A DNA stretch of 64,000 bases from positions 186,001 through 250,000 of the forward strand of contig NZ_FQYQ01000001.1 of the NCBI RefSeq assembly GCF_900141825.1. Reading direction: 5' to 3'. This document shows, one piece after another, positions 11,570 to 63,965 of the stretch. How positions within the stretch are numbered: position 1 is the stretch's first letter; every line of letters starts with the position of its first letter. Under the pieces are notes generated by a model. The model was not told the origin of the DNA, made no database searches, and saw nothing but the letters and a program-made list of their open reading frames with translations. The position numbers were made by a program, and so were the translations under genes. The stretch is from Pseudobutyrivibrio xylanivorans DSM 14809 (lineage in GTDB: Bacteria > Bacillota > Clostridia > Lachnospirales > Lachnospiraceae).

Positions 11570-12403
11570 ATGAAGAAGACTCAAGGGATTATTCAATATA
11601 TTTTTATAATTGTGGGAGCGGTTATGGCAAGCTTTTCTGTTGCCTTGATTTTATTGCCAAATGATGCAATAGATTATGGTACGGCAGGTGTTGCCATCAT
11701 AATTAGCAAGCTTACAGGTTTATCACTTTCTCTTTGTGTGGCAGTTGTATTTATCCCATTTATACTTGCGGGTTTTGTGGTTCTAGGCAAGAAGTTTACG
11801 ATAAAGGCTGCTGTGGGATCTTTGTGCTATACATTAGGTCTATACTTCTTCGAGGAGATTCCTTTCGAGCTAAATACAGAGCATTTCCTAGCTGTAGCAT
11901 TTGGAGGAGCAATTCTTGGCGCTGGTTTATCTCTAATTCTTCGTAATGGTGGATGTATAGATGGTTCTGAGATTTTGGCTAACATCATCGTAAAGAAGCT
12001 TTCAGATAAGACTGGTCGCAACTATAGCATGACGCCAGTACTTTTAATTTTTAACGCTCTGGTATATGCCACTGTTTTTGCAGTAATAGATGTTACAGCA
12101 GCGCTTTTAAGCTTGCTTGTGTATGTGGTTGCTACAGCAATTATTGACCACTACACAGATCATTTTGAAGCAATCAAGCAAGTCACTATTATCACGCAGG
12201 ATCCGGATAATATTATTGCAGACATAAAGAAGCAGTTGAATAAGACATGCACAATTATGGATTCTCGAGGAGCCATTGCAGGAGAAAATAACACACTGAT
12301 TTGTTATATAAGTTATTTTGAACTTCCAGTAATGAAGGATATTATTTCATCTCACCCAGGCTCATTCAGTACTGTGTCTACTATTGATGAGATATTGAGG
12401 TAA
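11570..12403 (+). CDS. YitT family membrane protein, second copy
   Basis: 277 residues from the ATG at 11570. The longer frame from 11456 begins inside the preceding terminator and is rejected. Several hydrophobic helices, NGGCIDGSEILANIIVKK (the family's polar signature), and a C-terminal DUF2179 domain (ITQDPDNIIADIKKQLNKTCTIMDSRGAIAGENN). Diverged from the copy at 949. The stop overlaps the next start. Confidence 0.82.
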   Translation: MKKTQGIIQYIFIIVGAVMASFSVALILLPNDAIDYGTAGVAIIISKLTGLSLSLCVAVVFIPFILAGFVVLGKKFTIKAAVGSLCYTLGLYFFEEIPFELNTEHFLAVAFGGAILGAGLSLILRNGGCIDGSEILANIIVKKLSDKTGRNYSMTPVLLIFNALVYATVFAVIDVTAALLSLLVYVVATAIIDHYTDHFEAIKQVTIITQDPDNIIADIKKQLNKTCTIMDSRGAIAGENNTLICYISYFELPVMKDIISSHPGSFSTVSTIDEILR

Positions 12404-48963: not shown

Positions 48964-50208
48964 ATGGGAAAGTTATTCACATCAGAATCAGTAACAGAGG
49001 GACATCCAGACAAAATTGCAGACCAAATTTCTGATGCAATCCTTGATGAGCTACTTGCTCAGGATCCATATTCTAGAGTCGCTGCTGAGACAACAGTAGC
49101 AACAGGACTAGCTCTTGTTGTAGGAGAGATTACAACAAAGGCTTATGTGGACATTGCAAAGGTTGCCAAGGAAACAATCAGAGAGATTGGTTATGTAAAT
49201 AACGTTGATGGATATAATGCAGATTCAATTGCAGTACTTACATCAATTGATGAGCAGTCAGCAGATATTGCACTTGGAGTTGATAAGGCATTTGAATCAA
49301 AACAGGAAGGAGTGACGGAAGATTTTGGAACAGGAGCAGGTGACCAGGGAATCATTTTTGGATACGCGACAGATGAGACACCAGAATATTTACCACCAGC
49401 TATTTCGTTTGCTCATCGTCTTACTAGACAACTTACAAAGGTTCGAAAGGATGGAACACTTCCATACCTTAGACCAGATGGAAAATCACAGGTAACTGTG
49501 GAATTTGCAGAGGATGGACAGACTGTAAAGAGAGTACATACCATCGTAATTTCAACACAGCATGCAGAGGATGTAACTCTTGAGCAGATTCGTAAAGACG
49601 TAATTGAATACGTCATAAAGCCGGTAATTCCAGAAGAACTCCTAGACGAAAACACCATATATTATGTAAATCCAACTGGAAGATTTGTTATCGGTGGTCC
49701 ACAGGGAGATGCAGGACTGACAGGACGTAAGATTATCGTGGATACCTATGGTGGCACAGGTCGTCACGGCGGCGGTGCTTTCTCAGGAAAGGATCCAACA
49801 AAGGTTGACCGTTCTGCAGCCTACGCAGCTCGCTGGGTAGCAAAGAATCTTGTGGCTGCAGGATTAGCAAAGAGACTTGAAGTAGAGCTTGCATACGCAA
49901 TCGGAGTAGCAAGGCCAGTATCAATTGCCGTAGACACATTTGGAACAGGAGTGATTGATGATGAAAAAATTGTTGAAATTATTGAAAGAGTATTTGATCT
50001 CAGACCAGCAGCAATCATCGATGCCCTTAATCTTCGTAGGCCAATCTACAAGCAGACTGCTGCTTATGGACATTTCGGCAGGACCGATGTGGACTTACCT
50101 TGGGAGCATTTAGATAAGGTGGAGGAGATAAAGAGCTACCTTAATGAGATAAAAGTTGATTTGGCTGTTCAGTATATTTCTGAGGCTAAGGAAGCAGTAC
50201 AAGTATAA
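48964..50208 (+). CDS. metK: S-adenosylmethionine synthetase
   Basis: 414 residues, slightly longer than the common 385-400. Converts methionine and ATP to SAM. Signatures: [33 protein letters not shown] and [23 protein letters not shown]. It heads an operon with the nitrogenase-like genes (next start 18 bases on) and would feed the two radical SAM enzymes. It may be a second, pathway-specific copy in the genome. Confidence 0.95.
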
Positions 50209-51126: not shown

Positions 51127-52521
51127 ATGAGTTCTATAGATGATAGAAAAGCATTAACAAGAGAAAAACGTCTTAGCTCTCTTAGTCATTTTCATGGAAC
51201 ACTGGAAGGACTGATTGATGAAACCTCTGGAGAAGAGATAAAGCAGAGAATCAGAACCTTCTCACAGATACATGATGATGAAACTATCTATGCATTTGAT
51301 GTTCTTTCAAAGATTGAGGATGCTGCGATTATAGTAAATGGCTCAGTGGGATGTGGTGCTCTTGGAATATCTCAGTCTAATGTAAAGGACTTTAGCTGGT
51401 ACTCTACAAATCTTGTTGAGAGGGACACAATACTTGGCGGTGATGATAAGCTTAGAGAAGCTATTTTAAGAGCCTACGAAGAGAAGCATCCAAAGGTGAT
51501 ATTAATTATTGGAACACCGGTTGTAGCCATAAATAATGATGATATTAATTCGGTTATTTTGGAGCTTGAGGATGAGATAGGTATTCCTATTATCAGCATT
51601 TATACAGATGGTTTTAAGACCAAGACTCCAGTCACAGGTTACGATATCGTGACACACAGCTTGTTAAAATATCTGATTTCTAAAAATGTTGAGCTTAAGG
51701 ATAACTTCATTAATATAATTTCATTTTCGGAAGACATCGAAGACGTGGCAGCTATAGCCGAAATTTTCCATGAGCTTGATATTAAATTCCAGGTGATTCC
51801 TAGATTCTCAAGCGTAGATGAAATCAGAAGAGCATCAAGAGCGAGAGCCTCAGTTGTTCTTAATCCAGAAGAGGGAGACTATCTGGCAAGAGAGCTTGAG
51901 GAGCTTTATGAGATACCTTATATAGAGACAGAAGCTCCAATAGGATTTAGAGGAACAAAGAATTTTCTACTCAAGATTGCAGCATTCTTAAATATAGAAC
52001 AGGAAGTTGTTGATTATATCGAGAAGGTAGAGTCTGAGCTTGCTCAGGCAGTTGTAAAGGATGTGCTTGGAGATAGAAAAATCTTCATAGACGCATCACT
52101 TAGCAGGGTGCCGGCATATGCAAGATTATTCACTAATTTAGGTGGAGAAGTGGTAGGTTTTTCATCACCATTTGTGGATTTAGAGAATAGGAAGCAGCTT
52201 AAAAGACTGGATTTTCTACAGAAAAACACAGTTGCAATCATTGGAAATGGCCAGCAGTTTGAAAAGGCAAATGAATTATCAAAAAATCAGATAGATATTT
52301 TCTTCAGTGAAAATTCAGGAAGTTCATTTGCTACGGATGAGGGTGCTGTAGTTATTTCTACAAAGAATAAGGTAACTTACGGCTTTAAGGGAGTTGAAGT
52401 TATTGTAAATTCAATTAGGAAGGTAATTGGGTTCCAAAATAAATACAGACAGAATAGCAGTTATAAGGATAGCTGGAAGAAACGAAGTGGAAACTGGTAT
52501 GTAAAGCAGGAGGTAAGTTAG
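51127..52521 (+). CDS. Nitrogenase-like alpha component (NifD family), single-Cys variant
   Basis: 464 residues in the nitrogenase component 1 fold. GSVGCG at 72-77 matches the P-cluster segment GPVGCG of NifD, and NNDDIN matches the GDDI turn. Cys76 is the only Cys in the whole protein. The Cys that binds FeMo-co and two of the three NifD P-cluster Cys are missing, and no obvious cofactor His is seen. With three Cys in the K protein, the pair would hold one four-Cys cluster at their interface, as in the dark protochlorophyllide reductase class. The substrate site must differ from nitrogenase. Confidence 0.8.
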   Translation: MSSIDDRKALTREKRLSSLSHFHGTLEGLIDETSGEEIKQRIRTFSQIHDDETIYAFDVLSKIEDAAIIVNGSVGCGALGISQSNVKDFSWYSTNLVERDTILGGDDKLREAILRAYEEKHPKVILIIGTPVVAINNDDINSVILELEDEIGIPIISIYTDGFKTKTPVTGYDIVTHSLLKYLISKNVELKDNFINIISFSEDIEDVAAIAEIFHELDIKFQVIPRFSSVDEIRRASRARASVVLNPEEGDYLARELEELYEIPYIETEAPIGFRGTKNFLLKIAAFLNIEQEVVDYIEKVESELAQAVVKDVLGDRKIFIDASLSRVPAYARLFTNLGGEVVGFSSPFVDLENRKQLKRLDFLQKNTVAIIGNGQQFEKANELSKNQIDIFFSENSGSSFATDEGAVVISTKNKVTYGFKGVEVIVNSIRKVIGFQNKYRQNSSYKDSWKKRSGNWYVKQEVS

Positions 52522-53958
52522 ATGGCAAATATTATTAAGAATCCAAGAAATGGATGTGCCCTTCATGGAGCTTTACAGACAGTTCAGGAAATTCAGGGAG
52601 TAGTTCCTGTGGTTCATGCCAATGCAAGCTGTGGAGTAATCAATTATTTGGCCAATTCCAAAACATCGGGTGGAAATCCAAGATTTTCCGGCTATTCAAC
52701 ACCAGGAACAGCAGCTCAGGAACGTCATGTTATTTTCGGTGGAGCGTCACGACTTAGAGAGCAGATTAAAAACACAGTAAAGGTTGTTGATGGTTCTCTT
52801 TATATAATCCTCAATAGCTGTGAGTCAGCTATGGTAGGTGATGACGTAGATGCCATGACAAGAGAGATTGTTGAACAAGGCGAGCCAGTTGTAGATACAT
52901 TGATAGCTGGATTTAACGGTAGTGCTTATTACGGATATGAACATGTGTTAGCTGACATTTTCAAATCATTTTATGAGCTTAAAAAGAATGAAGGTGAAAA
53001 GAATCCACGTCTTGTAAATATATTCGGAATTATTCCCCAGAAGGATCCCTATTGGCAGGGGAATCTTGAGGAGATAACAAGAATTCTAAATGGTGTTGGA
53101 TTGGAAACAAATATCTTCTTTGGTGCTGATGGGGGCACTGAGGATATAGAAAATGCAAGGAACGCTGCTCTTTCAATTACATTTGGAAGATGGGGGGAAC
53201 TACCTGCAAAGGTATTGAATGAAAAATTTGAGATTCCAGTAATTCAAAGGGCAGCATTACCTATAAATGCTGATGATGAGAGAGCACTTATTGAAGGAAT
53301 TGAAGAGTATATCACTATCGATCAGGAGACAAAAGAGCACTTTTTAGAGAAGGAACAGAAATACGAGCTAAATTACTGGTCGAGAGTCAGAGATGAAATT
53401 ATTGAGAATGATCTTGGAAGAACTGTAGCTATTGTTGGCGAAGAGGAGCATGTAATCAGATTAGGGAAGCTGGTTCAGGAGGTTTTTGGCGCAGAGGTAG
53501 TTGCAGCGGTATTAACAGATGCATTGAAAAAGGATGAAGAACATACTTTGGATAATGAAGAAGTTCTTAATTCTATAGCAAAGAACATTTATAAGACATC
53601 TGACCAGAAGGACATCAACGATATTATCAGACAGTCAAAGGCAGAATTGGTTATTGGAAGTTCTTTAGAACAGCATGTTGCTGATAAACATGGTATTCCA
53701 CTTGTGGAAGCATCATATCCTGTTTATCACAAAACAATTCTTAATCATTCATCCATAGGTGTGCGAGGTATAGTTGGGGTTATTGCTGAATATATAACAG
53801 CAGTTAAGCAGGCTGATAAAGAAAAAGAAGAAAAACTCCAGAACAAGCTGAAGGAGTTAAAGGGACAAAATGTCTGGCAGGAGCATTCTTATAAGAAGAG
53901 TCACAACGTGAAGCAGGTCGGTCTGGTTTCACAGGGTGCAGTTAGAGAATCTATTTAA
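52522..53958 (+). CDS. Nitrogenase-like beta component (NifK family), three-Cys variant
   Basis: 478 residues. Cys12 (NGCALHGAL), Cys37 (NASCGVINYL) and Cys100 (NSCESAMVGDDVD) line up with the three P-cluster Cys of NifK; there are no others. Starts one base after the NifD-like stop, so coupled translation is likely. The Arg/Lys-rich tail after residue 440 is an extension. It forms a heterotetramer with the alpha component, by homology. Confidence 0.82.
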   Translation: MANIIKNPRNGCALHGALQTVQEIQGVVPVVHANASCGVINYLANSKTSGGNPRFSGYSTPGTAAQERHVIFGGASRLREQIKNTVKVVDGSLYIILNSCESAMVGDDVDAMTREIVEQGEPVVDTLIAGFNGSAYYGYEHVLADIFKSFYELKKNEGEKNPRLVNIFGIIPQKDPYWQGNLEEITRILNGVGLETNIFFGADGGTEDIENARNAALSITFGRWGELPAKVLNEKFEIPVIQRAALPINADDERALIEGIEEYITIDQETKEHFLEKEQKYELNYWSRVRDEIIENDLGRTVAIVGEEEHVIRLGKLVQEVFGAEVVAAVLTDALKKDEEHTLDNEEVLNSIAKNIYKTSDQKDINDIIRQSKAELVIGSSLEQHVADKHGIPLVEASYPVYHKTILNHSSIGVRGIVGVIAEYITAVKQADKEKEEKLQNKLKELKGQNVWQEHSYKKSHNVKQVGLVSQGAVRESI

Positions 53959-53986: not shown

Positions 53987-55255
53987 ATGTCTAGGGCTAT
54001 TACTAGAGAGGAATTATTTAAAGAGATTGAGTTGAGCAACATTATTGCAAATGAAGGTATATATATTTCACCAGAAGTAATCAGCACACTTGATTTTGAA
54101 AATCATGTTCAGGAGCAGATGAGAACATGCTTTGATATGAATCATGAGACTTACACAAAAACAAAGCTGCCTACTTCTATTCGTCTATCAAGTAACTTTA
54201 GATTAGGACTTCCTTATAGACATAATTCAAGATTTTCTGTTCAGCATGAAAATGGAAAGTATTATCTTTTAGAGGGAAACAATCAGATTGATGAAGTTAC
54301 TTTTGTGGAAAAGCCAAAATTCTACAATCATAAAACTTCTGATGGTGTAGATATGAAGACCATCGCTAACGAGGTTGGTAAGACAAAGGTAACAGTTGCC
54401 TACAGTAACGAATGTGCTCTCAAGGATAAGGGACTTGACTGCAAATTCTGTAACATCAACGCAACTAAGAGCAGATTTGCGGATTTACAGGGAATCTCTT
54501 GGAAGACACCATATCAGATTGCAGAAACATACGCAAAGGCAAGAGAAGAGGGATATGAATCTATCACTATTACAGGTGGATTTGTTCCAGAGCGTCGTGA
54601 AGTAGAATACTATATTGATGTGGCTGAGACTATTCAGGATTTAACAGGTCTTCAGGACTTTGGTGGAACAGCCTGCGTAGGTGCACCTAGTGATCTTTCA
54701 GTAATCGAAAAATATAAGGAAGCAGGCTATAGGGCTATTTCTACTAACCTTGAGGTATGGGACGAGAACTTCTTCAAGACAATCTGCCCTGGTAAGGAAC
54801 AGATTTGTGGTGGAAGACAGAATTGGATTAACGCTCTTAAGCATGAGGTTGAAGTATTCGGTAAAGGAAATGTTCGCTCATTTTTTGTTGCAGGTATTGA
54901 ACCAAAATCTACACTTCTTGAAGGTATTGAATATCTTACAGAGCTCGGTATAGTGGCAATACCACTTCATTGGATTCCAAATCCAGGTTCTGCACTTGAA
55001 GGACATAGAGCTCCAACTCCAGAGTGGTATTTGGATTTATATCAGAAGACATATACATTGCTTAAGAAGAATGGTCTTACTCATAGAGATTTGTATCATT
55101 CAGCAAACGTTGAGAATTCAATCTTTGATTACTTCTATGATTTAGATGGTGATCATCTTGATATTCCAAAGCACGAGGCTGACAGAGTTCACTTTGTTGG
55201 AGAAGATAGCACAGTAGATAATAGAGAAGAAGAATTAATAGAGAAAACAGCATAA
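53987..55255 (+). CDS. Radical SAM enzyme, copy 1 (CX8CX2C cluster motif)
   Basis: 422 residues. The radical SAM barrel starts near 135 with NECALKDKGLDCKFC: Cys143, Cys152 and Cys155, a CX8CX2C spacing instead of CX3CX2C. ITGGFVPERREVEYY fits the GGE region. The later parts (GIEPKSTLLEGIEYLTELGIVAIPLHWIPNPGS and HRAPTPEWYLDLY) resemble the BioB/HydE/HydG group. The N-terminal 130 residues have no recalled relative. It follows nifK-like by 28 bases. The role may be metallocofactor building or attack on the sulfur compound. A close paralogue is at 60788. Confidence 0.72.
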   Translation: MSRAITREELFKEIELSNIIANEGIYISPEVISTLDFENHVQEQMRTCFDMNHETYTKTKLPTSIRLSSNFRLGLPYRHNSRFSVQHENGKYYLLEGNNQIDEVTFVEKPKFYNHKTSDGVDMKTIANEVGKTKVTVAYSNECALKDKGLDCKFCNINATKSRFADLQGISWKTPYQIAETYAKAREEGYESITITGGFVPERREVEYYIDVAETIQDLTGLQDFGGTACVGAPSDLSVIEKYKEAGYRAISTNLEVWDENFFKTICPGKEQICGGRQNWINALKHEVEVFGKGNVRSFFVAGIEPKSTLLEGIEYLTELGIVAIPLHWIPNPGSALEGHRAPTPEWYLDLYQKTYTLLKKNGLTHRDLYHSANVENSIFDYFYDLDGDHLDIPKHEADRVHFVGEDSTVDNREEELIEKTA

Positions 55256-55320: not shown

Positions 55321-56409
55321 ATGAAAAAGAATTACATAAAGAAATTTTTGGCTATAACAGCAGCATTATCTATGACCGTAGGATTTGTAGGTTGTGGAAA
55401 TGAAGGGGCTGATACTATAGAGGCTGGTTCAAAATTAAAGTCGGATGAGGAAACGAAAGTAGAAATCGATCCTGAAAATTTCAATATTGATGATGTAGGA
55501 GAATTTACTATCAGAGTAGGTGTGAATTCTGGTGACGGAAATCAATATCTAAAGATTTTAGATAATCACACAGGCTATCTGAAGGATAGAGGTATTAATC
55601 TTGAAACTACAGAGTTTGCAGCTGGTATTAATACAATTGATGCCATTACTACAGATCAATTAGATGTAGGTCTTTTTGCAGATTATGCAGGTGTAAATAG
55701 AATTGGTAATACCTTAGCAGATACACAGCTTAGAGCTTTTGCCACCATCAGAAAATCTAATGCATATAACCTTTATGTAAATCCAGATACTATTAAGGAG
55801 CCAAAGGATTTGGAAGGGCATACAGCAATCTCAATGGCAGGTGTTGTATTTGAATATGATTATGGAAAATTATTCGAAACCTATGATATTGATAAGTCAA
55901 AGGTAGAATTAGTAAACGTATCAAGTACACAGGAGGCAATTGCATTAGCTGCTACAAACGGAGCAGACAGCTATTGGGTAAATGATCAGATTGCTCCTAA
56001 GTTTGAAGAGGTTGGTTGGAAGCCTCTTGTAAATATTTCTGATGTTGACGCAACTATGTATACATTCTTAGTAGCAAACAATTCATATTTGGAGGAGCAC
56101 AAGGCAGAGGTTGCAAAGTTTTTAAAGGTTAGTGACGAAGCCTTTGATTATATTGATGAGAACCTTGATGAGTTTGCAGGCTGGGTTCAGGCTGATATAG
56201 GTCTTGATAAAGATTTGGTTATAAGAGGCTGGAAGGAAGCTACACATAATTACACATTCCCACAGGATGCTTATGAAGATCTGCTCAAGGTTGAAGACTG
56301 GTGTTATAAGAATGGTAATTTCCCAACAGAATACGATTTTACTGATTACATTAACACAGATGCCTTGGCTTTGGTTTCACCAGACGAGGTAACCTGGCAG
56401 GCAAAATAG
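55321..56409 (+). CDS. NitT/TauT-type ABC binding lipoprotein, copy 1
   Basis: 362 residues, lipobox FVGCG. Solute-binding domain of the NMT1/SsuA/TauA type: FTIRVGVNSGDGNQYLKIL, AAGINTIDAITTDQLDVGLFADY, and NVSSTQEAIALAATNGADSYWVNDQ. The family transports sulfonates, taurine, nitrate-type ions and thiamine precursors; the setting here favours an organosulfur ligand. The paralogue at 62125 is similar throughout but differs in the pocket. Confidence 0.82.
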   Translation: MKKNYIKKFLAITAALSMTVGFVGCGNEGADTIEAGSKLKSDEETKVEIDPENFNIDDVGEFTIRVGVNSGDGNQYLKILDNHTGYLKDRGINLETTEFAAGINTIDAITTDQLDVGLFADYAGVNRIGNTLADTQLRAFATIRKSNAYNLYVNPDTIKEPKDLEGHTAISMAGVVFEYDYGKLFETYDIDKSKVELVNVSSTQEAIALAATNGADSYWVNDQIAPKFEEVGWKPLVNISDVDATMYTFLVANNSYLEEHKAEVAKFLKVSDEAFDYIDENLDEFAGWVQADIGLDKDLVIRGWKEATHNYTFPQDAYEDLLKVEDWCYKNGNFPTEYDFTDYINTDALALVSPDEVTWQAK

Positions 56410-56418
56410 GAGGTCCCT

Positions 56419-57180
56419 ATGAAGAATATTACGAGAAAAATTATTAAAAGCGGAATCATTTCCTGGGCGGTACTATTTGTGATTTGGGGAATAGTGTCAC
56501 TGTTTTACGCAGAATCATTTTTTCCAAGTCCAGTAGAGACTTTTGTAGGTTTTAAAGAAATCGTGCTAAATGGAAAGCTTTGGGAGGATATAAGTATTAG
56601 TGTTCAGCGTGTGCTTTTAGGCTGGAGTAGAGCACTACTAATTGGAATTCCTGTGGGACTGCTGATTGGTAGATTCAGAATTGTGAACTGGTTTATAGAG
56701 CCATTTATAAATTTCTTCAGATTTGTACCAGCTATTGGTTTTTTGACTCTCTTTCTGATGTGGTTTGGTGTAGGTGAAGAATCAAAACTGATTTTGATTA
56801 CTTATGCATCTATTTTTCCAATCATTATAAACACAATAGCTGGTGTAAATACTATCAATCCAGTGAAGTATCAGGCAGCAGAGTCACTTGGAGCAAACAG
56901 ATTTCAGTCCTTTATCACTGTAACTGTTCCAGGAGCAGTACCTAGTATTTTGACAGGCGCAAGACTTGGTCTTAGTACAGCCATTATTTCCATTGTAGGA
57001 GCTGAAATGCTGGCAGCTAATAGTGGACTTGGTTATCTGGTTTATACATCACGACTTTATTACAGAACTGATTGGATTTTTGTAGGAATCGTAACTCTTG
57101 GTGTTTTAGGATTTTTTGCTGATAAATTTCTTAGATTCGTAGCAAAAAAATCACTTAAGCATTATGGCGTTACAGGATAG
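56419..57180 (+). CDS. NitT/TauT-type ABC permease
   Basis: 253 residues, six helices, SsuC/TauC style. FFPSPVETFVGFKEI at the start and the EAA loop KYQAAESLGANRFQSFITVTVPGAVPSILTGARLGLSTAIISIVGAEM. It starts 9 bases after the binding protein. Confidence 0.9.
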   Translation: MKNITRKIIKSGIISWAVLFVIWGIVSLFYAESFFPSPVETFVGFKEIVLNGKLWEDISISVQRVLLGWSRALLIGIPVGLLIGRFRIVNWFIEPFINFFRFVPAIGFLTLFLMWFGVGEESKLILITYASIFPIIINTIAGVNTINPVKYQAAESLGANRFQSFITVTVPGAVPSILTGARLGLSTAIISIVGAEMLAANSGLGYLVYTSRLYYRTDWIFVGIVTLGVLGFFADKFLRFVAKKSLKHYGVTG

Positions 57181-57189
57181 GAGGAGCTT

Positions 57190-58107
57190 ATGTCTAATAA
57201 TACTAAAATTAAAATTGAACATATCAGCAAAAAATATGATGTAGAGAACAAAGCTCTTTTATTCACAAAGGGTAACAGTGCCCATGATAATTTCGTAGGC
57301 CACGAGACAGATTTCGTATTAAAGGATGTAAATCTTGAAATAAAAGAGGGAGAATTTCACATATTCTTAGGAGCCAGCGGATGTGGAAAAACCACACTTT
57401 TAAATATTGTAGCAGGCTTTTTAAATAAGACAGAAGGTTCCGTAAAGCTTGATGACAAAGAAATTTCAGGACCTGGTTCTGAGAGAGGTGTAGTTTTCCA
57501 AAATGCTGACTCGGCTATATTCCCATGGCTTACAGTTCAAAAAAATGTGGAGTATGGCCTTAGGATGAGAGGTGTAAAAAAGGAGGAGCGTAAAAAAATT
57601 GCATTAGATGCTATCGAGCTTGTAGGGCTAAAAGGACATGAGCATAAATACCCTGATGAACTTTCAGGTGGTATGAAGCAAAGAGTCCAGATTGCCAGAA
57701 GTATTGCTGCCAATCCAGAGGTTTTAATTATGGATGAGCCATTTGGAGCTCTTGATGCTCAGACAAGACGAACACTTCAGGACGAGCTTATTAACATTTG
57801 GAAAAAGACTGGAAAGACAATTCTTTTTGTTACTCACGATATAGCAGAAGCAGTTTATTTAGGTGAGAATATCAGTATTTTCTCGGTGGCTCCAGATGCA
57901 AGTATCGTTGATAAAATTACCGTTCCTTATAAGTATCCAAGAGATGTTAATGATCAAAGAGTAGGGGAGTTTATAAAATACACTACTGAGCAGCTTGAGA
58001 ATGCTATAAGAGCATCAAAGGCAAAGCACGAAGGCTTACAGAAGGCAGAAAATGAGGAAGAAGCTGTTGAAAATGAAGTAGCAGAGGCTAATTCTGTAGC
58101 CGTATAA
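57190..58107 (+). CDS. NitT/TauT-type ABC ATPase
   Basis: 305 residues, SsuB/TauB style. Walker A GASGCGKTT, signature LSGGMKQRVQIARSI, Walker B LIMDEPFGALDAQTRR, H-loop THD. A small insertion follows residue 25, and the C-terminal 40 residues are an acidic extension. Completes the transporter with the two preceding genes; the second binding protein at 62125 may share it. Confidence 0.92.
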   Translation: MSNNTKIKIEHISKKYDVENKALLFTKGNSAHDNFVGHETDFVLKDVNLEIKEGEFHIFLGASGCGKTTLLNIVAGFLNKTEGSVKLDDKEISGPGSERGVVFQNADSAIFPWLTVQKNVEYGLRMRGVKKEERKKIALDAIELVGLKGHEHKYPDELSGGMKQRVQIARSIAANPEVLIMDEPFGALDAQTRRTLQDELINIWKKTGKTILFVTHDIAEAVYLGENISIFSVAPDASIVDKITVPYKYPRDVNDQRVGEFIKYTTEQLENAIRASKAKHEGLQKAENEEEAVENEVAEANSVAV

Positions 58108-58131: not shown

Positions 58132-58563
58132 ATGGCAAATTTTAAAGATATAAAGGATTATATTTATGAGAATAAGAGCTTGGTTCTTTCTACTGTAGAT
58201 GAGGCAGGAAACCCACAGCTCAGACATATCGGTGGATACTCTATCGATGGTAAGGACATTGTTTTTCAAACTACAAAAAATACTGATAAGACAAAGGATA
58301 TTGCTCACAACAATAATGTGGCTCTTTTATTTCAGCATGAGGGACAGCAGGCTCCAAAGAATGTAACCATTTATGGACGTGCATTAGAGCTGGATGAGCT
58401 TGATGCAAAGAAGGCAGCCAGCCTTATTAAAGAGAGACGTCCGCAGCTCAATTATGATCCACAGGTAAATGTGATTTTTAAAGTAGAGACGGAATCAGTA
58501 AAGGTTCTTGATTTTCAGGCAGACCCAAAGCAGCTAGTAGTTCCAGCAAGCCAGCTGGTATAA
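58132..58563 (+). CDS. Pyridoxamine 5'-phosphate oxidase-family flavoprotein
   Basis: 143 residues, a split-barrel fold with the DEAGNPQLRHIGGYSIDGKDIVFQT pattern and the NVALLFQHEG strand. Members bind FMN, F420 or haem and reduce or oxidise small substrates. In this operon it could act on the imported compound or detoxify a product. Exact function unknown. Confidence 0.78.
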   Translation: MANFKDIKDYIYENKSLVLSTVDEAGNPQLRHIGGYSIDGKDIVFQTTKNTDKTKDIAHNNNVALLFQHEGQQAPKNVTIYGRALELDELDAKKAASLIKERRPQLNYDPQVNVIFKVETESVKVLDFQADPKQLVVPASQLV

Positions 58564-58572
58564 GGTGGTGGC

Positions 58573-59286
58573 ATGAAAAAAGTATTGATTGTGAGTGCAT
58601 TGCCTCAGGAAACAGAATTCATAGACGAATATTTGAGAGACAATACTGACTGGATTAAACAGGATGAGGGAGAATACGTAAATACGATAAAAGATATTTA
58701 TGTTTATGTGAAGGTCTTAGGCGTAGGAAAAGTCAATGCTGCATTTCAAACAGCAGATGCAATAAATGATGTTAATCCGGACTTAATCGTAAATGTTGGT
58801 GTGGCAGGAGGCTTAGCTGATGATTTGGACAGAGGGTCAGTAGCAATTGGTACAGATTATGTGCAGGTAGATATGAGAACATTGATACCTGAAAACAGTC
58901 CAGTTATTGATCCTACTCCAAGGTATCTTCTCGAGGGAATAATTCAGGTGGCAAAGGCTAGCGAGATTAGTTTCAGAGCAGGAAGGATTGCAACAGGCGA
59001 TTTTGTTCTCTATGAGAGAAAAAAGAGAAGAGCTATAAAAAAGGAATTCAAGCCGATTGCATTTGATATGGAAACAGCCGCTGTAGCCCAGGTGGCAACT
59101 GCCAAGAAAATCGATTTTATTGGCATTAGAAGTTTTTCTGATATGGCAAATAAAAAGACCATTGGTTTATTAAGTAAGAAAAAGCAGATAGACAGTGCTG
59201 AGCTTAAATTAAGACGGGAGATGTTTAAGCTTCCAGCAAAATTAGTTATTGATTATCTGGAACAGGAGGATGGTAAGACAGCATGA
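58573..59286 (+). CDS. MTA/SAH nucleosidase-like purine nucleosidase
   Basis: 237 residues of the PNP/UDP family. VNVGVAGGL, ATGDFVLYERK, FDMETAAVAQVA and the catalytic Asp in RSFSDMAN are in place. It would cleave methylthioadenosine, S-adenosylhomocysteine and the 5'-deoxyadenosine left by radical SAM reactions. This fits its place between two radical SAM genes and downstream of metK. Starts after a GGTGG site. Confidence 0.85.
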   Translation: MKKVLIVSALPQETEFIDEYLRDNTDWIKQDEGEYVNTIKDIYVYVKVLGVGKVNAAFQTADAINDVNPDLIVNVGVAGGLADDLDRGSVAIGTDYVQVDMRTLIPENSPVIDPTPRYLLEGIIQVAKASEISFRAGRIATGDFVLYERKKRRAIKKEFKPIAFDMETAAVAQVATAKKIDFIGIRSFSDMANKKTIGLLSKKKQIDSAELKLRREMFKLPAKLVIDYLEQEDGKTA

Positions 59287-60635
59287 AAAGAGATATGACA
59301 TCTGGAAATGTTACTGTTTCACTGCTGTATTTTATTATTCCCTTGACTCTTGGTAATATTCTGCAACAGCTGTACAACGCGGTGGATACCTATATCGTAG
59401 GGAGGTATGTAGGGAGCATGGCGTTGTCAGCTGTTGGCTCTGTAAGTAATCTTATTTTCATTTTTAACGCCATAGTGCTTGGCTTAAAGGCAGGAATCTC
59501 AGTAATCTGCTCAGAAAGCTATGGCAGAAGAGATGAAAAGGATTTCAATATCAGCAGAGAAGTAGGTTTTTTACTTATAGTAGCAACAGGAGTCATATGT
59601 ACTGTAATTGGTATAACAAAGGCTACAAATATCATGGAATTTATAAAGGTTCCGGACGTGATTTTTCAGGATGCATATGGTTATTTAAGAATAATATTGA
59701 TAGGTTATCCTTTTGTATTTCTCTTTAATTATGGCATTGCAATCACGCAGGCAAGGGGAAATTCTAATATTACTTTTATCGCATTACTTTCAAGCACTAT
59801 ATGTAACATTTTACTTGATTTGGTATTGATTTGTATTTTTGGCTTAGGTGTAAACGGCGCTGCAATTGCTACTATAATTTCGCAGGCTCTTTCAATGATA
59901 ATCGTATTTACGAATTTGATAGCTACCGTGCCGCGTTCAAAATTTTCTTTTGAAGCTGGTGTGGTATCAGAAAAGCTAAAGGACATTCTCAGAGTTTCAT
60001 TTCCATCTATTTTGCAGCAGGGAATACTTTCCCTGGGAATCATTTTAGTATCAGCTCTAATAAATCAATGTGGTACAGCGATGATTGCAGGGGTAGCCAT
60101 TGGTGGAAAAATCGATGGAATAATATCGCTCCCGATTATTACCATTGCAGAGGCGTTGGCTGTATTTACAGCTCAAAATATTGGAGCAGGTAAACCTGAG
60201 AGAATAGAAGAAGGCGTAAAGGCAGCAATTAAGCTTTGTGTGATTATGGTAAGTTTCTATTCTGTACTGATTTATTATCAGGGTCGTGAAATAATAAAGC
60301 TTTTCTTAGATGAATATGATGAAGCCATCGTTTCCGAGGGAATGAATTATATGGTTTCCATTTTGATAATGATGGTATTTATGATTTTCTTTAGATGTTT
60401 TATAGGAGTATATACAGGTAAGAAGGAGATGAAATTTGTCCTATTAGCCTTTACTTTAAATATTATCTGCAGAGTGTCATTTGCCTATGCTACATTTCCA
60501 GGATTAGGAAAATGGTCAGTGTATATTGCTAATCCATTAAGTGTATTGGTGGGAGCTATAGTGATTATGAGCGTTTATGGAATACAAAAATATGGAGAGC
60601 ATTTTCAGGTGAATGCAAAACTGGAAATTAATTAA
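59283..60635 (+). CDS. MATE family efflux transporter, sulfur-type cluster
   Basis: 450 residues, twelve helices, start GNVTVSLLYFIIPLTLGNILQQLYNAVDTYIVGRYVGS. The start overlaps the nucleosidase stop by four bases (ATGA). It may export a waste product of the pathway, or be an added resistance function. Confidence 0.88.
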   Translation: MKRDMTSGNVTVSLLYFIIPLTLGNILQQLYNAVDTYIVGRYVGSMALSAVGSVSNLIFIFNAIVLGLKAGISVICSESYGRRDEKDFNISREVGFLLIVATGVICTVIGITKATNIMEFIKVPDVIFQDAYGYLRIILIGYPFVFLFNYGIAITQARGNSNITFIALLSSTICNILLDLVLICIFGLGVNGAAIATIISQALSMIIVFTNLIATVPRSKFSFEAGVVSEKLKDILRVSFPSILQQGILSLGIILVSALINQCGTAMIAGVAIGGKIDGIISLPIITIAEALAVFTAQNIGAGKPERIEEGVKAAIKLCVIMVSFYSVLIYYQGREIIKLFLDEYDEAIVSEGMNYMVSILIMMVFMIFFRCFIGVYTGKKEMKFVLLAFTLNIICRVSFAYATFPGLGKWSVYIANPLSVLVGAIVIMSVYGIQKYGEHFQVNAKLEIN

Positions 60636-60787: not shown

Positions 60788-62056
60788 ATGTCAAGAGCAA
60801 TAACAAGAGAAGAATTGTACAGGGAAATTGATCTTGGTAACCAGATTTCAAGTGAGGGCATCTATATTAGTCCGGAAGTAATTGCAACACTTGATTTTGA
60901 AAATGAAATTCAGGAACAGGTGCGAACATGTTTTGATATGAATCATGAAACCTATACCAAGACAAAGCTGCCAACATCTGTAAGATTATCTAGCAATTTC
61001 AGAGTAGGGCTACCTTACAAACACAATTCGAGATTTTCTATTCAGCATGAGAATGGGAAATATTATCTTTTGGAAAAGGGCAATCAGCTTGATGAAATTA
61101 CATTTGTTGAGAAGCCTAAATTTCACAATTTTAAAACATCAGATGGCATTCCAATGAAGACCATTGCCGCTGATGTTGGAAAATCCAAAATTTCTGTTGC
61201 CTACAGTAACGAGTGTGCATTAAAGGATAAGGGATTGGATTGTAAATTCTGCAACATTAACGCTACAAAGAGCCGTTTTGCAGATTTGCAGGGAATATCA
61301 TGGAAAACACCTGTACAGATTGCGGAAACATATGCAAAGGCAAGAGAAGAAGGATATCAGGCTATTACCATTACAGGTGGATTTATTCCAGAGCGACGTG
61401 AGGTAGAGTATTACATCGATGTTGCTGAGGCTATTCAGGATTATACAGGTCTAAAGGAATTTGGAGGTGCAGCTTGTGTTGGTGCTCCAGCAGATTTATC
61501 TGTAATAGAGAAATATAAGGAAGCTGGTTACAGTGCAATTTCATCCAACATGGAGGTGTGGGATGAGAACATCTTCAAGACAATTTGCCCTGGCAAGGAA
61601 CAAATCTGTGGCGGTAGACAAAATTGGATAAATGCCCTAAAGCATGAGGTTGAAGTATTTGGAAGAGGAAATGTTCGCTCATTCTTTGTGGCTGGAATTG
61701 AACCTAAATCAACACTACTTGAAGGTATTGAATATTTGACAGAACTTGGTGTTGTAGCAATTCCACTTCATTGGCTGCCTAATCCTGGCTCAGAGCTTGA
61801 GGGACATAGAGCTCCAGATCCAGACTGGTATTTAGATTTATATCAAAAGACATACACGCTTCTCAGAAAAAATGGAATCACTCATAGAGATTTATATAGC
61901 TCAGTTAATGGAGAAAACAGTATCTTTGATAACTTCTATGATTTGGATGGAGATCATCTTGATATTCCAAGGCACGAGGAGGACAGAGTTCACTTTGTGA
62001 ATGAAGGCGATACGGTAGAAAATATAGACACCATTAAGGAAATAAAAACAGCATAG
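60788..62056 (+). CDS. Radical SAM enzyme, copy 2 (CX8CX2C cluster motif)
   Basis: 422 residues, the same length as copy 1 with most positions identical by eye. Cys143, Cys152 and Cys155 in NECALKDKGLDCKFC are retained, as are TGGFIPERREVEYY and GIEPKSTLLEGIEYL. Differences cluster near 10-25, 95-130 and the C-terminal tail. Has its own leader element. Perhaps adapted to a related substrate paired with binding protein 2. Confidence 0.72.
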   Translation: MSRAITREELYREIDLGNQISSEGIYISPEVIATLDFENEIQEQVRTCFDMNHETYTKTKLPTSVRLSSNFRVGLPYKHNSRFSIQHENGKYYLLEKGNQLDEITFVEKPKFHNFKTSDGIPMKTIAADVGKSKISVAYSNECALKDKGLDCKFCNINATKSRFADLQGISWKTPVQIAETYAKAREEGYQAITITGGFIPERREVEYYIDVAEAIQDYTGLKEFGGAACVGAPADLSVIEKYKEAGYSAISSNMEVWDENIFKTICPGKEQICGGRQNWINALKHEVEVFGRGNVRSFFVAGIEPKSTLLEGIEYLTELGVVAIPLHWLPNPGSELEGHRAPDPDWYLDLYQKTYTLLRKNGITHRDLYSSVNGENSIFDNFYDLDGDHLDIPRHEEDRVHFVNEGDTVENIDTIKEIKTA

Positions 62057-62124: not shown

Positions 62125-63213
62125 ATGAAAAAGAATTACTTGAAGAAAATACTTGCAGTGACAATGACTATTGCAGTTAGTGCAGGATTTGCAGGTTGTG
62201 GCAACGAAGGTGTGGATACTATTGAGGCAGGTTCTGCTTTGAAAAATGAAGTGAATGAAGAAGCAAGCATTGATGCAGACTCATTTAATATAGATGATGT
62301 GGGCGAAATTACACTTAGGGTTGGAGTGTGCTCAGGAGATCCTAATCAATATCTAAAAGTTTTAGATAATCATACTAATTTCTTAAAAGACAGGGGGATT
62401 AATTTAGAGACTACTGAATTTGCAGCAGGAATAAATACTATTGATGCTATTACAATTGACCAGCTGGATATAGGTAATTTTGCAGATTATGCGGGTATTA
62501 ATAGAATTGGTAATACATTGGCTGAAACAGATTTAAGAGCTTTTACTATGACAGGTATCAATAAAACTTCCGTTTTGTATGTCAATCCTGAGCACATAAA
62601 AACAGCCAAAGATTTAGAGGGGGCAGTTCTTATTTCACATGCAGGTGTAGTCGTTGAATACGATTATGGTAAATTGGCTGAGACATATGATTTGGATCCA
62701 GACAAACTGGAATATACAAATGTATCGAGTTCTCAGGAGGCACTTGCTCTTGCAACATCAAATTCAGGTGATGCTTATTGGGCTGGGAAACAGGTTCAAC
62801 CAAAATTTGAAGAGGCTGGTTGGGTACCATTCACAAGCATAGTGGATGTAGGGGCTCCAATGTATTGCTTCCTTGTAGCAAATAATAAGTTCCTTGAGGA
62901 GCATAAGGCAGAGGTGGCAAAATATTTGGCAGTCAGTGAAGAAGGATTTGCATATATAACAGAACATTTAGATGAATTTGCAGGATGGGTAGAGGCAGAC
63001 CTTGGTCTTAGAAAGGACTTGGTAATCTCGGGATGGCAGGAAAGCACCCATGATTATGGATTTCCTCAGGAGGCATATGAGGATTTGTACAGTGTTGAAG
63101 AATGGTGCTACAAAAATGGGAATTTCCCAACACAGTACGACCCAGCAGATTTCATCAACACCGATGCGCTAGCTTTATATAAGCCAGATGCTGTTACCTG
63201 GGAGAGAAAATAG
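62125..63213 (+). CDS. NitT/TauT-type ABC binding lipoprotein, copy 2
   Basis: 362 residues, lipobox FAGCG. The same fold and length as copy 1, with matching N-terminal signal and AAGINTIDAITIDQLDIGNFADY. Differences in the pocket segments (MTGINKTSVLYVNPEHI and SIVDVGAPMYCFL) suggest another ligand. No own permease or ATPase follows; the set at 56419-58107 is the likely partner. Confidence 0.82.
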   Translation: MKKNYLKKILAVTMTIAVSAGFAGCGNEGVDTIEAGSALKNEVNEEASIDADSFNIDDVGEITLRVGVCSGDPNQYLKVLDNHTNFLKDRGINLETTEFAAGINTIDAITIDQLDIGNFADYAGINRIGNTLAETDLRAFTMTGINKTSVLYVNPEHIKTAKDLEGAVLISHAGVVVEYDYGKLAETYDLDPDKLEYTNVSSSQEALALATSNSGDAYWAGKQVQPKFEEAGWVPFTSIVDVGAPMYCFLVANNKFLEEHKAEVAKYLAVSEEGFAYITEHLDEFAGWVEADLGLRKDLVISGWQESTHDYGFPQEAYEDLYSVEEWCYKNGNFPTQYDPADFINTDALALYKPDAVTWERK

Positions 63214-63302: not shown

Positions 63303-63311
63303 GGAGTGAAA

Positions 63312-63965
63312 ATGAATAAGATTACTTTATATCATGGCTCGGATAAAATTATATCTGAGCCTAAAATTAATTTAGGGAAAAAATATAATGATTATGGTCA
63401 GGGATTATATTGCACTAGACATTTAGAGCTTGCAAAAGAATGGGCAGTAGATGAAGGAAGAGATGGTTTTGTAAACATCTATGAACTAGATATAAAGGGG
63501 CTGAAAGTACTAGATCTTAATAGTGAAGATTATAGTATTTTACATTGGCTTACAGTTCTACTAGAGCATAGAGTTTTAAATGTCAATGCCCCTGTCGCCA
63601 TAGAAGGAATGGAATATTTGAAGAGGCATTACCATATATCTCTGGATGATTATGATGTAGTTTTGGGATATAGGGCTGATGATTCTTATTTTTCATTTGC
63701 TAGGGCTTTCATATCAAATTCTATAAGCATAGCTCAGCTTGAAAAGGCAATGTATCTTGGAAATTTAGGTACTCAGTATTTTATTAAAAGCAAAAATGCA
63801 TTCTCAAAATTGAATTTTATTGAGGCATTGCCAGTGGATAGTACTGAATTTTTTTCTAAAAAAAATCAAAGAGATACTAAAGCTAGAGCTGATTATGAAA
63901 AAATAACTAATGCTATGGACAGAGATGGAGTTTATATTTTGGATTTGATAAGAAAGGAGAAGTAA
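63312..63965 (+). CDS. DUF3990 protein, ADP-ribosyltransferase-like, possible toxin
   Basis: 217 residues from the ATG at 63312, with AGGAG five bases upstream; the GTG at 63306 overlaps that site. YHGSDKIISEPKINLGKKYNDYGQGLYCTRHLELAKEWA is the DUF3990 signature and recalls the NAD site of ADP-ribosyltransferases. Such genes often lie next to small partner genes; one starts one base after the stop. No target known. Confidence 0.7.
   Translation: MNKITLYHGSDKIISEPKINLGKKYNDYGQGLYCTRHLELAKEWAVDEGRDGFVNIYELDIKGLKVLDLNSEDYSILHWLTVLLEHRVLNVNAPVAIEGMEYLKRHYHISLDDYDVVLGYRADDSYFSFARAFISNSISIAQLEKAMYLGNLGTQYFIKSKNAFSKLNFIEALPVDSTEFFSKKNQRDTKARADYEKITNAMDRDGVYILDLIRKEK

Follow-up and report, generated by a model that had tools for sequence, protein, structure and literature searches.

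In a 64,000-nucleotide stretch of the genome of Pseudobutyrivibrio xylanivorans DSM 14809 (contig NZ_FQYQ01000001.1, positions 186,001 to 250,000 of the forward strand; hereafter the window, numbered from its first letter), one co-directional block of genes runs from an S-adenosylmethionine (SAM) synthetase gene, metK, through the second of two genes for NMT1-type substrate-binding proteins (SBPs), and includes adjoining genes for two nitrogenase-like subunits, D and K, which are the subject of this report (Table 1). Both proteins match the Pfam family Oxidored_nitro (D at 204 bits, K at 212.5 bits), and the Fe protein encoded just upstream (H) carries the ATP motif GKGGIGKS and both cluster cysteines, C98 and C134, these motifs being recognised by eye. 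The block also encodes two radical SAM proteins (B) and an ABC transporter whose components score above the cut-offs of their Pfam families and match the Ssu/Tau models of NCBIfam below theirs.

Table 1. Genes of the D/K locus in window coordinates (Isr, isethionate reductase).
Feature	Position	Strand	Remarks
metK, cluster SAM synthetase	48964..50208	+	branch differs from that of the housekeeping copy at G000:C40
H, IsrH-type Fe protein, 291 aa	50226..51101	+	Cys98 and Cys134 in two NifH cluster motifs, by eye
D, IsrD-type nitrogenase-like subunit, 464 aa	51127..52521	+	single Cys76 (codon 51352-51354); C-terminal NWYVKQEVS
K, IsrK-type nitrogenase-like subunit, 478 aa	52522..53958	+	Cys12 (52555-52557), Cys37 (52630-52632), Cys100 (52819-52821)
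First B, IsrB-type radical SAM protein	53987..55255	+	module type I; NF045502 variant_rSAM; CX8CX2C motif
SsuA/NMT1-type SBP	55321..56409	+	above Pfam cut-off, below NCBIfam cut-off
TauC/SsuC/SaoP-like permease	56419..57180	+	below NCBIfam cut-offs
TauB/SsuB-like transporter ATPase	57190..58107	+	NCBIfam matches below their cut-offs
PNPOx-like small protein	58132..58563	+	between ATPase and nucleosidase genes
MTA/SAH nucleosidase-like protein (MTAN)	58573..59286	+	below equivalog cut-offs; putative 5'-deoxyadenosine removal
MatE-family membrane protein	59283..60635	+	adjoins cluster; cluster membership uncertain
Second B, radical SAM protein	60788..62056	+	84% identical to first B; likewise type I
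Second NMT1-type SBP	62125..63213	+	after second B

Cysteine ligands of the D/K pair

A preliminary description of the pair, drawn up from the letters alone, had given D one cysteine (residue 76) and K three (residues 12, 37 and 100), and both open reading frames (ORFs) and both counts hold: C76, in the context NGSVGCGALG, is the only cysteine of the whole D protein, and C12, C37 and C100 are the only ones of K. Its placing of all four at P-cluster-type positions is borne out by alignment to chains of solved structure. When a profile of ten Isr-like D proteins (as defined below) was aligned with MarD of methylthio-alkane reductase (Mar) and with a nitrogenase alpha chain, C76 fell at the position of NifD Cys88, P131 at that of Cys154 and N246 at that of the cofactor ligand Cys275; the cofactor cysteine reported as absent is thus indeed replaced, by an asparagine. 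The Cys62 region lies outside this alignment. In K, C12, C37 and C100 pair with three cysteines of MarK that correspond to P-cluster positions 70, 95 and 153 of NifK. In nitrogenase, the cysteines at the positions of C76 of D and of the three of K are the four that bind the K-side cubane, or half, of the P-cluster.

Among 68 aligned D rows, positions 51, 76, 131 and 246 were all cysteine in 46 and only position 76 was cysteine in 21, while the one remaining row, which is truncated, had cysteine at the last three. Rows were named Isr-like or Mar-like by position 246, the other three columns giving the same split; the name 'Mar-like' marks cysteine at position 246 and carries no claim that such a row is Mar. 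The 21 Isr-like rows represent 20 genomes (L005 and L084 belong to one genome; G and L numbers denote genomes and loci throughout, G000 being the genome of the window), and some of the strains are near-identical. These rows carry Pro (20) or Ser (1) at position 131 and Asn (18), Asp (2) or Lys (1) at position 246. Position 51 (window 51277-51279), aligned to Cys62, is Asp in 20 and Ser in one, and may provide an extra ligand. On the K side, 55 of the 56 rows have cysteine at positions 12, 37 and 100, and the remaining one is truncated. Across 10 D and 11 K sequences the only invariant cysteines are C76 in D and C12, C37 and C100 in K. All 21 Isr-like D rows also end in NWY[VI]KQEV[SK] (residues 456-464), a tail found in 0 of the 47 others; it is a candidate docking peptide that may link parts of the system.

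Five named records matched K, all from Pseudobutyrivibrio and 60-99% identical, and the D protein of P. ruminis CF1b (L040) is 99.8% identical to that of the window. A tblastn search against plasmids returned no close relative of D, its 11 records showing 25.8-36.0% identity. In G150, which has an Isr-type D, the K gene is split over two frames (L074, at about 11600-11650), through either a sequencing error or gene decay.

From these patterns we infer that the four cysteines hold a single [4Fe-4S] cluster per D/K half. The loss of the cofactor cysteine and the want of any other conserved one agree with the cluster shared 1:3 that had been suggested earlier, and the same loss, together with a genome devoid of nifB and nifEN, agrees with the further suggestion that the pair works without an FeMo-co-like cofactor. 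Neither nifE nor nifN was found in the window genome (99.92% complete), in which D and K are the sole proteins above the Oxidored_nitro cut-off; nor was nifB, the only match to which scored 28.9 bits (profile positions 327-436; cut-off 343.65). An FeMo-co or L-cluster in DK is very unlikely because the cofactor cysteine has been lost.

The two subunits were modelled as a D-stop-K read-through fusion from 23 aligned rows (D rows of L085-L087 were left out of the D/K alignment, and read-through rows of L012, L013 and L020 were added), giving a pLDDT of 77.5 and a pTM of 0.72. Each half matched nitrogenase-like folds, the K half superposing on Mar with a Z-score of 36.9 and a root-mean-square deviation (rmsd) of 2.1 over 418 residues.

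Radical SAM modules, SAM synthetase and nucleosidase

The two B proteins of the window matched NF045502 (variant_rSAM), a domain-level model named only 'radical SAM protein', at 453 and 457 bits (cut-off 125). Strong matches, taken as at least 430 bits, occurred in 16 of the 29 genomes of the genus, and the genomes with an Isr-type D were these same 16; a seventeenth D match, in G156, was weak (3.8e-7). The same coincidence held in 391 genomes drawn from the class (at most 4 or 5 candidates per genome scored), where Isr-type D and strong variant_rSAM fell in the same five genomes, and among 150 genomes of the family strong K and strong B were confined to G000 and G029. The B-family motif, in 42 proteins that include divergent paralogs, is CX8CX2C in 34 and CX9CX2C in seven, one being masked. 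Lipoyl synthase was the best structural match of a model of B (pLDDT 89.0; Z 18.7, rmsd 3.5, 239 residues), with HydE within 1 Z of it (Z 18.1, rmsd 4.1, 245 residues) and NifB modestly lower (Z 16.2, rmsd 3.5, 221 residues); the solved relatives reached by the sequence profile at E 0.01 were two biotin synthases only (E 2.2e-4 and 4.2e-3).

Two B genes accompany one D in 11 of the 16 genomes. In nine of these 11 they are of different ortholog types (44-59% identical), and the pairs of G000 and G154 are recent copies of one another (84-85% identical). Beyond the genus, four strong B matches occur in G470 and three in G492, one of the four scored candidates in either genome being an Isr-type D. 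We distinguished four types of module by gene order: B-SBP-permease-ATPase (type I); SBP-B-permease-MTAN-ATPase (type II, the SBP being checked in L079 and seen in G169); SBP-permease-ATPase-B-MATE (type III); and SBP-dehydrogenase-B-permease-ATPase (type IV). Counting a gene seen in two loci once, and with many copies incomplete or cut by the end of the stretch, within 4.5 kb a permease and an ATPase follow the type II B in 6/7, and the set is complete in 4/5 for type III and 2/2 for type IV.

Some modules hold further enzymes. A 231-residue ORF lies inside both type IV modules (L075, 5045-5740; L080, 14454-15149), that of L080 being a short-chain dehydrogenase, and such an enzyme may act on the carbon product. 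In G470 an arylsulfotransferase-like protein is encoded between K and a B gene (L120, 16671-18128), and ORFs of equal length, 485 residues, in two other Isr loci (L122, 15284-16741; L042, 17451-18908) may be arylsulfotransferase-like too; a gene of this kind might widen the substrates to sulfate esters.

The cluster copy of metK is present in all 16 genomes with an Isr-type D, though in pieces in G158, G162 and G165. A further metK above the cut-off lies elsewhere in 14 of them, and none does in G165 and G174 (81% and 87% complete). Eight housekeeping copies were sampled, to which the window copy shows 64.6-66.2% identity, and in a midpoint-rooted tree drawn without support values the cluster copies branch together, apart from the housekeeping ones. 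In all 20 genomes of the genus with variant_rSAM above its cut-off a metK gene lies within about 7.4 kb, and four of the 20 have no Isr-type D. An MTA/SAH-type nucleosidase belongs to 14 of the 16 clusters, the exceptions being G151 and G165, where the contig ends. Two are present in G162, one for each B module, with 97% and 46% identity to the window copy. By contrast, eight Mar-like control loci (about 20 kb each, E 1e-8) held neither metK nor MTAN.

Five loci, L116 (G159), L117 (G173), L118 (G163), L119 (G156) and L129 (G539), carry metK and variant_rSAM genes, and the sequence covered there shows no H, D or K. Their metK genes branch with the Isr-cluster copies, at 82-93% identity to that of the window, and are accompanied by one or two divergent variant_rSAM genes with a long cysteine motif, by small proteins (one with a PNPOx match below the cut-off) and by an ABC transporter; the five loci are possibly a nitrogenase-free relative of the system. 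DUF3990 proteins, assigned by family test, adjoin the radical SAM clusters both in the window (63306-63965) and in L117 (15669-16956), where a helix-turn-helix protein comes next, and ORFs of the same sizes as in this L117 region occur in L118 (8407-9694). A further type of metK, about 51% identical to the window copy, lies outside the radical SAM clusters seen (G171:C21:72386-73516 and G177:C1:1540285-1541415). The sole Rfam match of the window at gathering thresholds was a tRNA.

Probable assignment to isethionate reductase and the proposed part of B

In light of the published isethionate reductase of Rhodobacter capsulatus, IsrBHDK (Morimoto et al., 2024; PMC11423573), the D/K pair is likely to be the catalytic component of a sulfonate desulfonation system of this type. 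IsrD of R. capsulatus has a single Cys74 at the NifD-88 position and lacks the FeMo-co ligands, and IsrK has Cys12, Cys37 and Cys99; its authors proposed that the four may hold a cluster such as [4Fe-4S], comparing it with that of the NB component of protochlorophyllide reductase (DPOR), so that the cysteine pattern and the idea of a shared cluster are already in print and are not new here. The same work reports that mutation of B, H or DK abolishes growth that depends on isethionate, as does mutation of the SsuCAB transporter, that an isethionate lyase rescues the DK mutant, that IsrDK co-purifies with a broad Fe-S band near 410 nm which falls with dithionite, and that IsrD is close to MarD (PMC11423573). 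The window shares with it one plus three P-cluster-type cysteines without the FeMo-co cysteine, an H protein with both cluster cysteines, an adjacent radical SAM gene and an Ssu-type transporter. It differs in having two B copies and in its metK, MTAN-like and PNPOx-like genes, none of which is among the genes in two of the published tables (induced and conserved genes, which do not span the whole locus; PMC11423573). At the position aligned to Cys62 the window has Asp51, and an Arg is given for R. capsulatus IsrD (PMC11423573), the alignments differing here. A sulfonate-splitting enzyme type described as recently as 2024 is thereby placed in rumen Pseudobutyrivibrio.

Judging by the protein families and by R. 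capsulatus genetics, an Ssu/Tau-like ABC transporter would import the sulfonate, which may be isethionate or another small one; IsrH, an ATP-dependent [4Fe-4S] Fe protein, would hand electrons to IsrDK, which would carry one [4Fe-4S] cluster per D/K half on D-C76 and K-C12/C37/C100 and no FeMo-co-like cofactor; and IsrDK with the radical SAM protein would cleave the C-S bond and release sulfite for a sulfite reductase. The whole would serve sulfur assimilation from sulfonates without oxygen. A gene of the NIR_SIR family is present 21.6 kb past the window end (291 aa, G000:C10:271611-272486; NIR_SIR 101.6 bits, with NIR_SIR_ferr and 4Fe-4S domains in addition), and its product could take the last step. 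It is preceded by a PLP enzyme of Cys/Met metabolism and followed by a thioredoxin-like ORF recognised by eye. Nearer the window end are genes for a solute-binding and an FAD-binding protein and for two products that look CysD/CysN-like by eye, one with a PAPS-reductase domain and the other an EF-Tu-type GTPase; further ORFs beyond the window were read by eye as siroheme genes. The region just after the window (G000:C10:250787-279744; L136 and L137) is likely one of sulfur assimilation. The Isr-type cluster shares its contig with these sulfate/sulfite assimilation-type genes and lies no more than about 25 kb from them.

The authors of the R. capsulatus study left it open whether IsrB breaks the bond itself or serves to activate the enzyme (PMC11423573), and the gene content described above bears on this question of maturase or turnover partner. 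What is new is the cluster metK, the co-located nucleosidase and the several B genes per HDK, many of them beside uptake genes of their own; no description of a multi-B, metK or nucleosidase association with Isr was found in searches of mostly open-access literature, a few of which named a SAM synthetase or a nucleosidase. These features suggest a turnover role for B. It is not obvious why a maturase should require a SAM supply of its own, a nucleosidase and several diverged copies. On the simplest reading B would spend SAM at each turnover, as a substrate-specific partner using it in bulk, with MetK making the SAM and the nucleosidase clearing 5'-deoxyadenosine. Because B is essential in R. 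capsulatus, is often duplicated here and commonly stands beside transporters, it may carry out some or all of the substrate handling, and the direct binding of substrate in D/K that the preliminary description suggested is only a possibility; one HDK unit could serve several B modules, supplying ATP-driven electrons or a shared reductive step while B recognises the substrate. As a bolder reading, which we rate as less likely than not, we propose a modular machine in which one HDK engine with a single [4Fe-4S] cluster works with interchangeable radical SAM and transporter cartridges, each B handling one sulfonate and using one SAM per turnover, with a dedicated MetK and nucleosidase and with the D tail for docking. 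If true, the scheme shows the nitrogenase scaffold at work with one simple cluster and with radical partners that can be exchanged, and the substrate range of a nitrogenase-like enzyme can be set by those partners and not by its own cavity. We know of no other nitrogenase-like enzyme of which this holds.

Several observations weigh against the assignment or against this modular scheme. In R. capsulatus the B gene is upstream of H, whereas in the window it is downstream of K, and orthology between the two systems is drawn from the published residue pattern and the gene set rather than from a tree. Isr-type D proteins outside the genus are 35-51% identical to that of the window. G509, which has Isr-type D and K, showed no metK and no MTAN over the 27.9 kb covered, and no MTAN was found in the 19 kb locus of G151. 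Five of the 16 genomes show one B only (two of these at contig ends), and the 84-85% identical B copies of the window genome and G154 are weak evidence for different substrates. The full SBP-permease-ATPase set follows within 4.5 kb in 6 of 13 type I B genes, counted as above, and the second B of the window is accompanied by an SBP alone, with no second permease or ATPase after it within the window. Finally, the whole fusion model superposed on natural NifEN fusions with an rmsd of 25.5-26.1 Å, so that it does not reproduce the packing of D against K.

The gene content could also be read to mean that DK is only an ATP-driven electron relay, in which H and DK feed the radical SAM proteins, all C-S chemistry takes place in the latter and DK binds no substrate. 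We regard this as somewhat unlikely, although it accounts for one Isr-type D per genome of the genus alongside two diverged B genes in 9 of 16, for a D tail (21/21 against 0/47) that could be the docking peptide, and for the existence of HDK-less clusters with metK and related radical SAM proteins. Known nitrogenase-like enzymes, however, act on substrate in their DK-type component, and residues of D such as G162-F163-K164 and K166 are invariant within the stretch aligned to, and presumably at the position of, the nitrogenase cavity.

It is improbable, in our estimation, that B is instead a NifB-like maturase that builds or modifies a DK cofactor once, leaving DK alone to reduce the sulfonate. 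NifB has this role in nitrogenase, and MarB is assumed to have it in Mar (PMC12552129); the B model also aligns to NifB. Against this, several diverged B copies with their own SAM synthetase and nucleosidase are not obviously needed for maturation, Mar-like loci have neither metK nor MTAN (0/8), the cofactor cysteine is gone, and lipoyl synthase and HydE are closer folds to B, though NifB is modestly lower.

More doubtful still is the notion that the true substrates are other imported organosulfur compounds and not sulfonates. The weak match of the SBP to the SsuA family (63.9 bits, cut-off 163.5) and the arylsulfotransferase-like gene adjoining B in G470 would fit it, but the transporter families are Ssu/Tau-like, the published Isr acts on isethionate (PMC11423573), and the genome also contains a NIR_SIR gene.

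Comparison with other nitrogenase-like enzymes

That D/K is Mar or another large-cluster enzyme is scarcely credible: although MarD and MarK are the closest sequences of solved structure (124.8 and 164.6 bits, respectively), two P-cluster cysteines and the [Fe8S9C]-binding cysteine are absent from all 21 Isr-like D rows, and the genome has no nifB. Membership in Mar was rejected on the same grounds, since neither the six P-cluster cysteines with the Cys270-type ligand nor a NifB-type maturase (MarB) was found. What Mar (MarHDK; PDB 9d9u and 9fmg) and the window have in common is the fold and three cysteines on K, and reductive C-S cleavage, published for Mar (PMC12552129), is predicted for the window. 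Mar has MarB, a P-cluster and an [Fe8S9C] cluster, the last bound through Cys270 and His429 (PMC12552129), whereas the window D lacks two P-cluster cysteines and the Cys270-type ligand, and its genome lacks nifB.

Nitrogenase itself (NifDK) was rejected, the full P-cluster and FeMo-co cysteine set, NifE/N and NifB all being absent. DPOR (BchLNB) was rejected too, for the D-type subunit does not carry three cysteines, the window having the reverse arrangement of one on D and three on K; to our knowledge, DPOR has no radical SAM partner either. Its cluster is bound by three cysteines of N and an Asp of B (PMC11423573). DPOR and the window pair would nevertheless be alike in relying on one subunit-bridging [4Fe-4S] cluster, predicted for the window, and in doing without a large cofactor.

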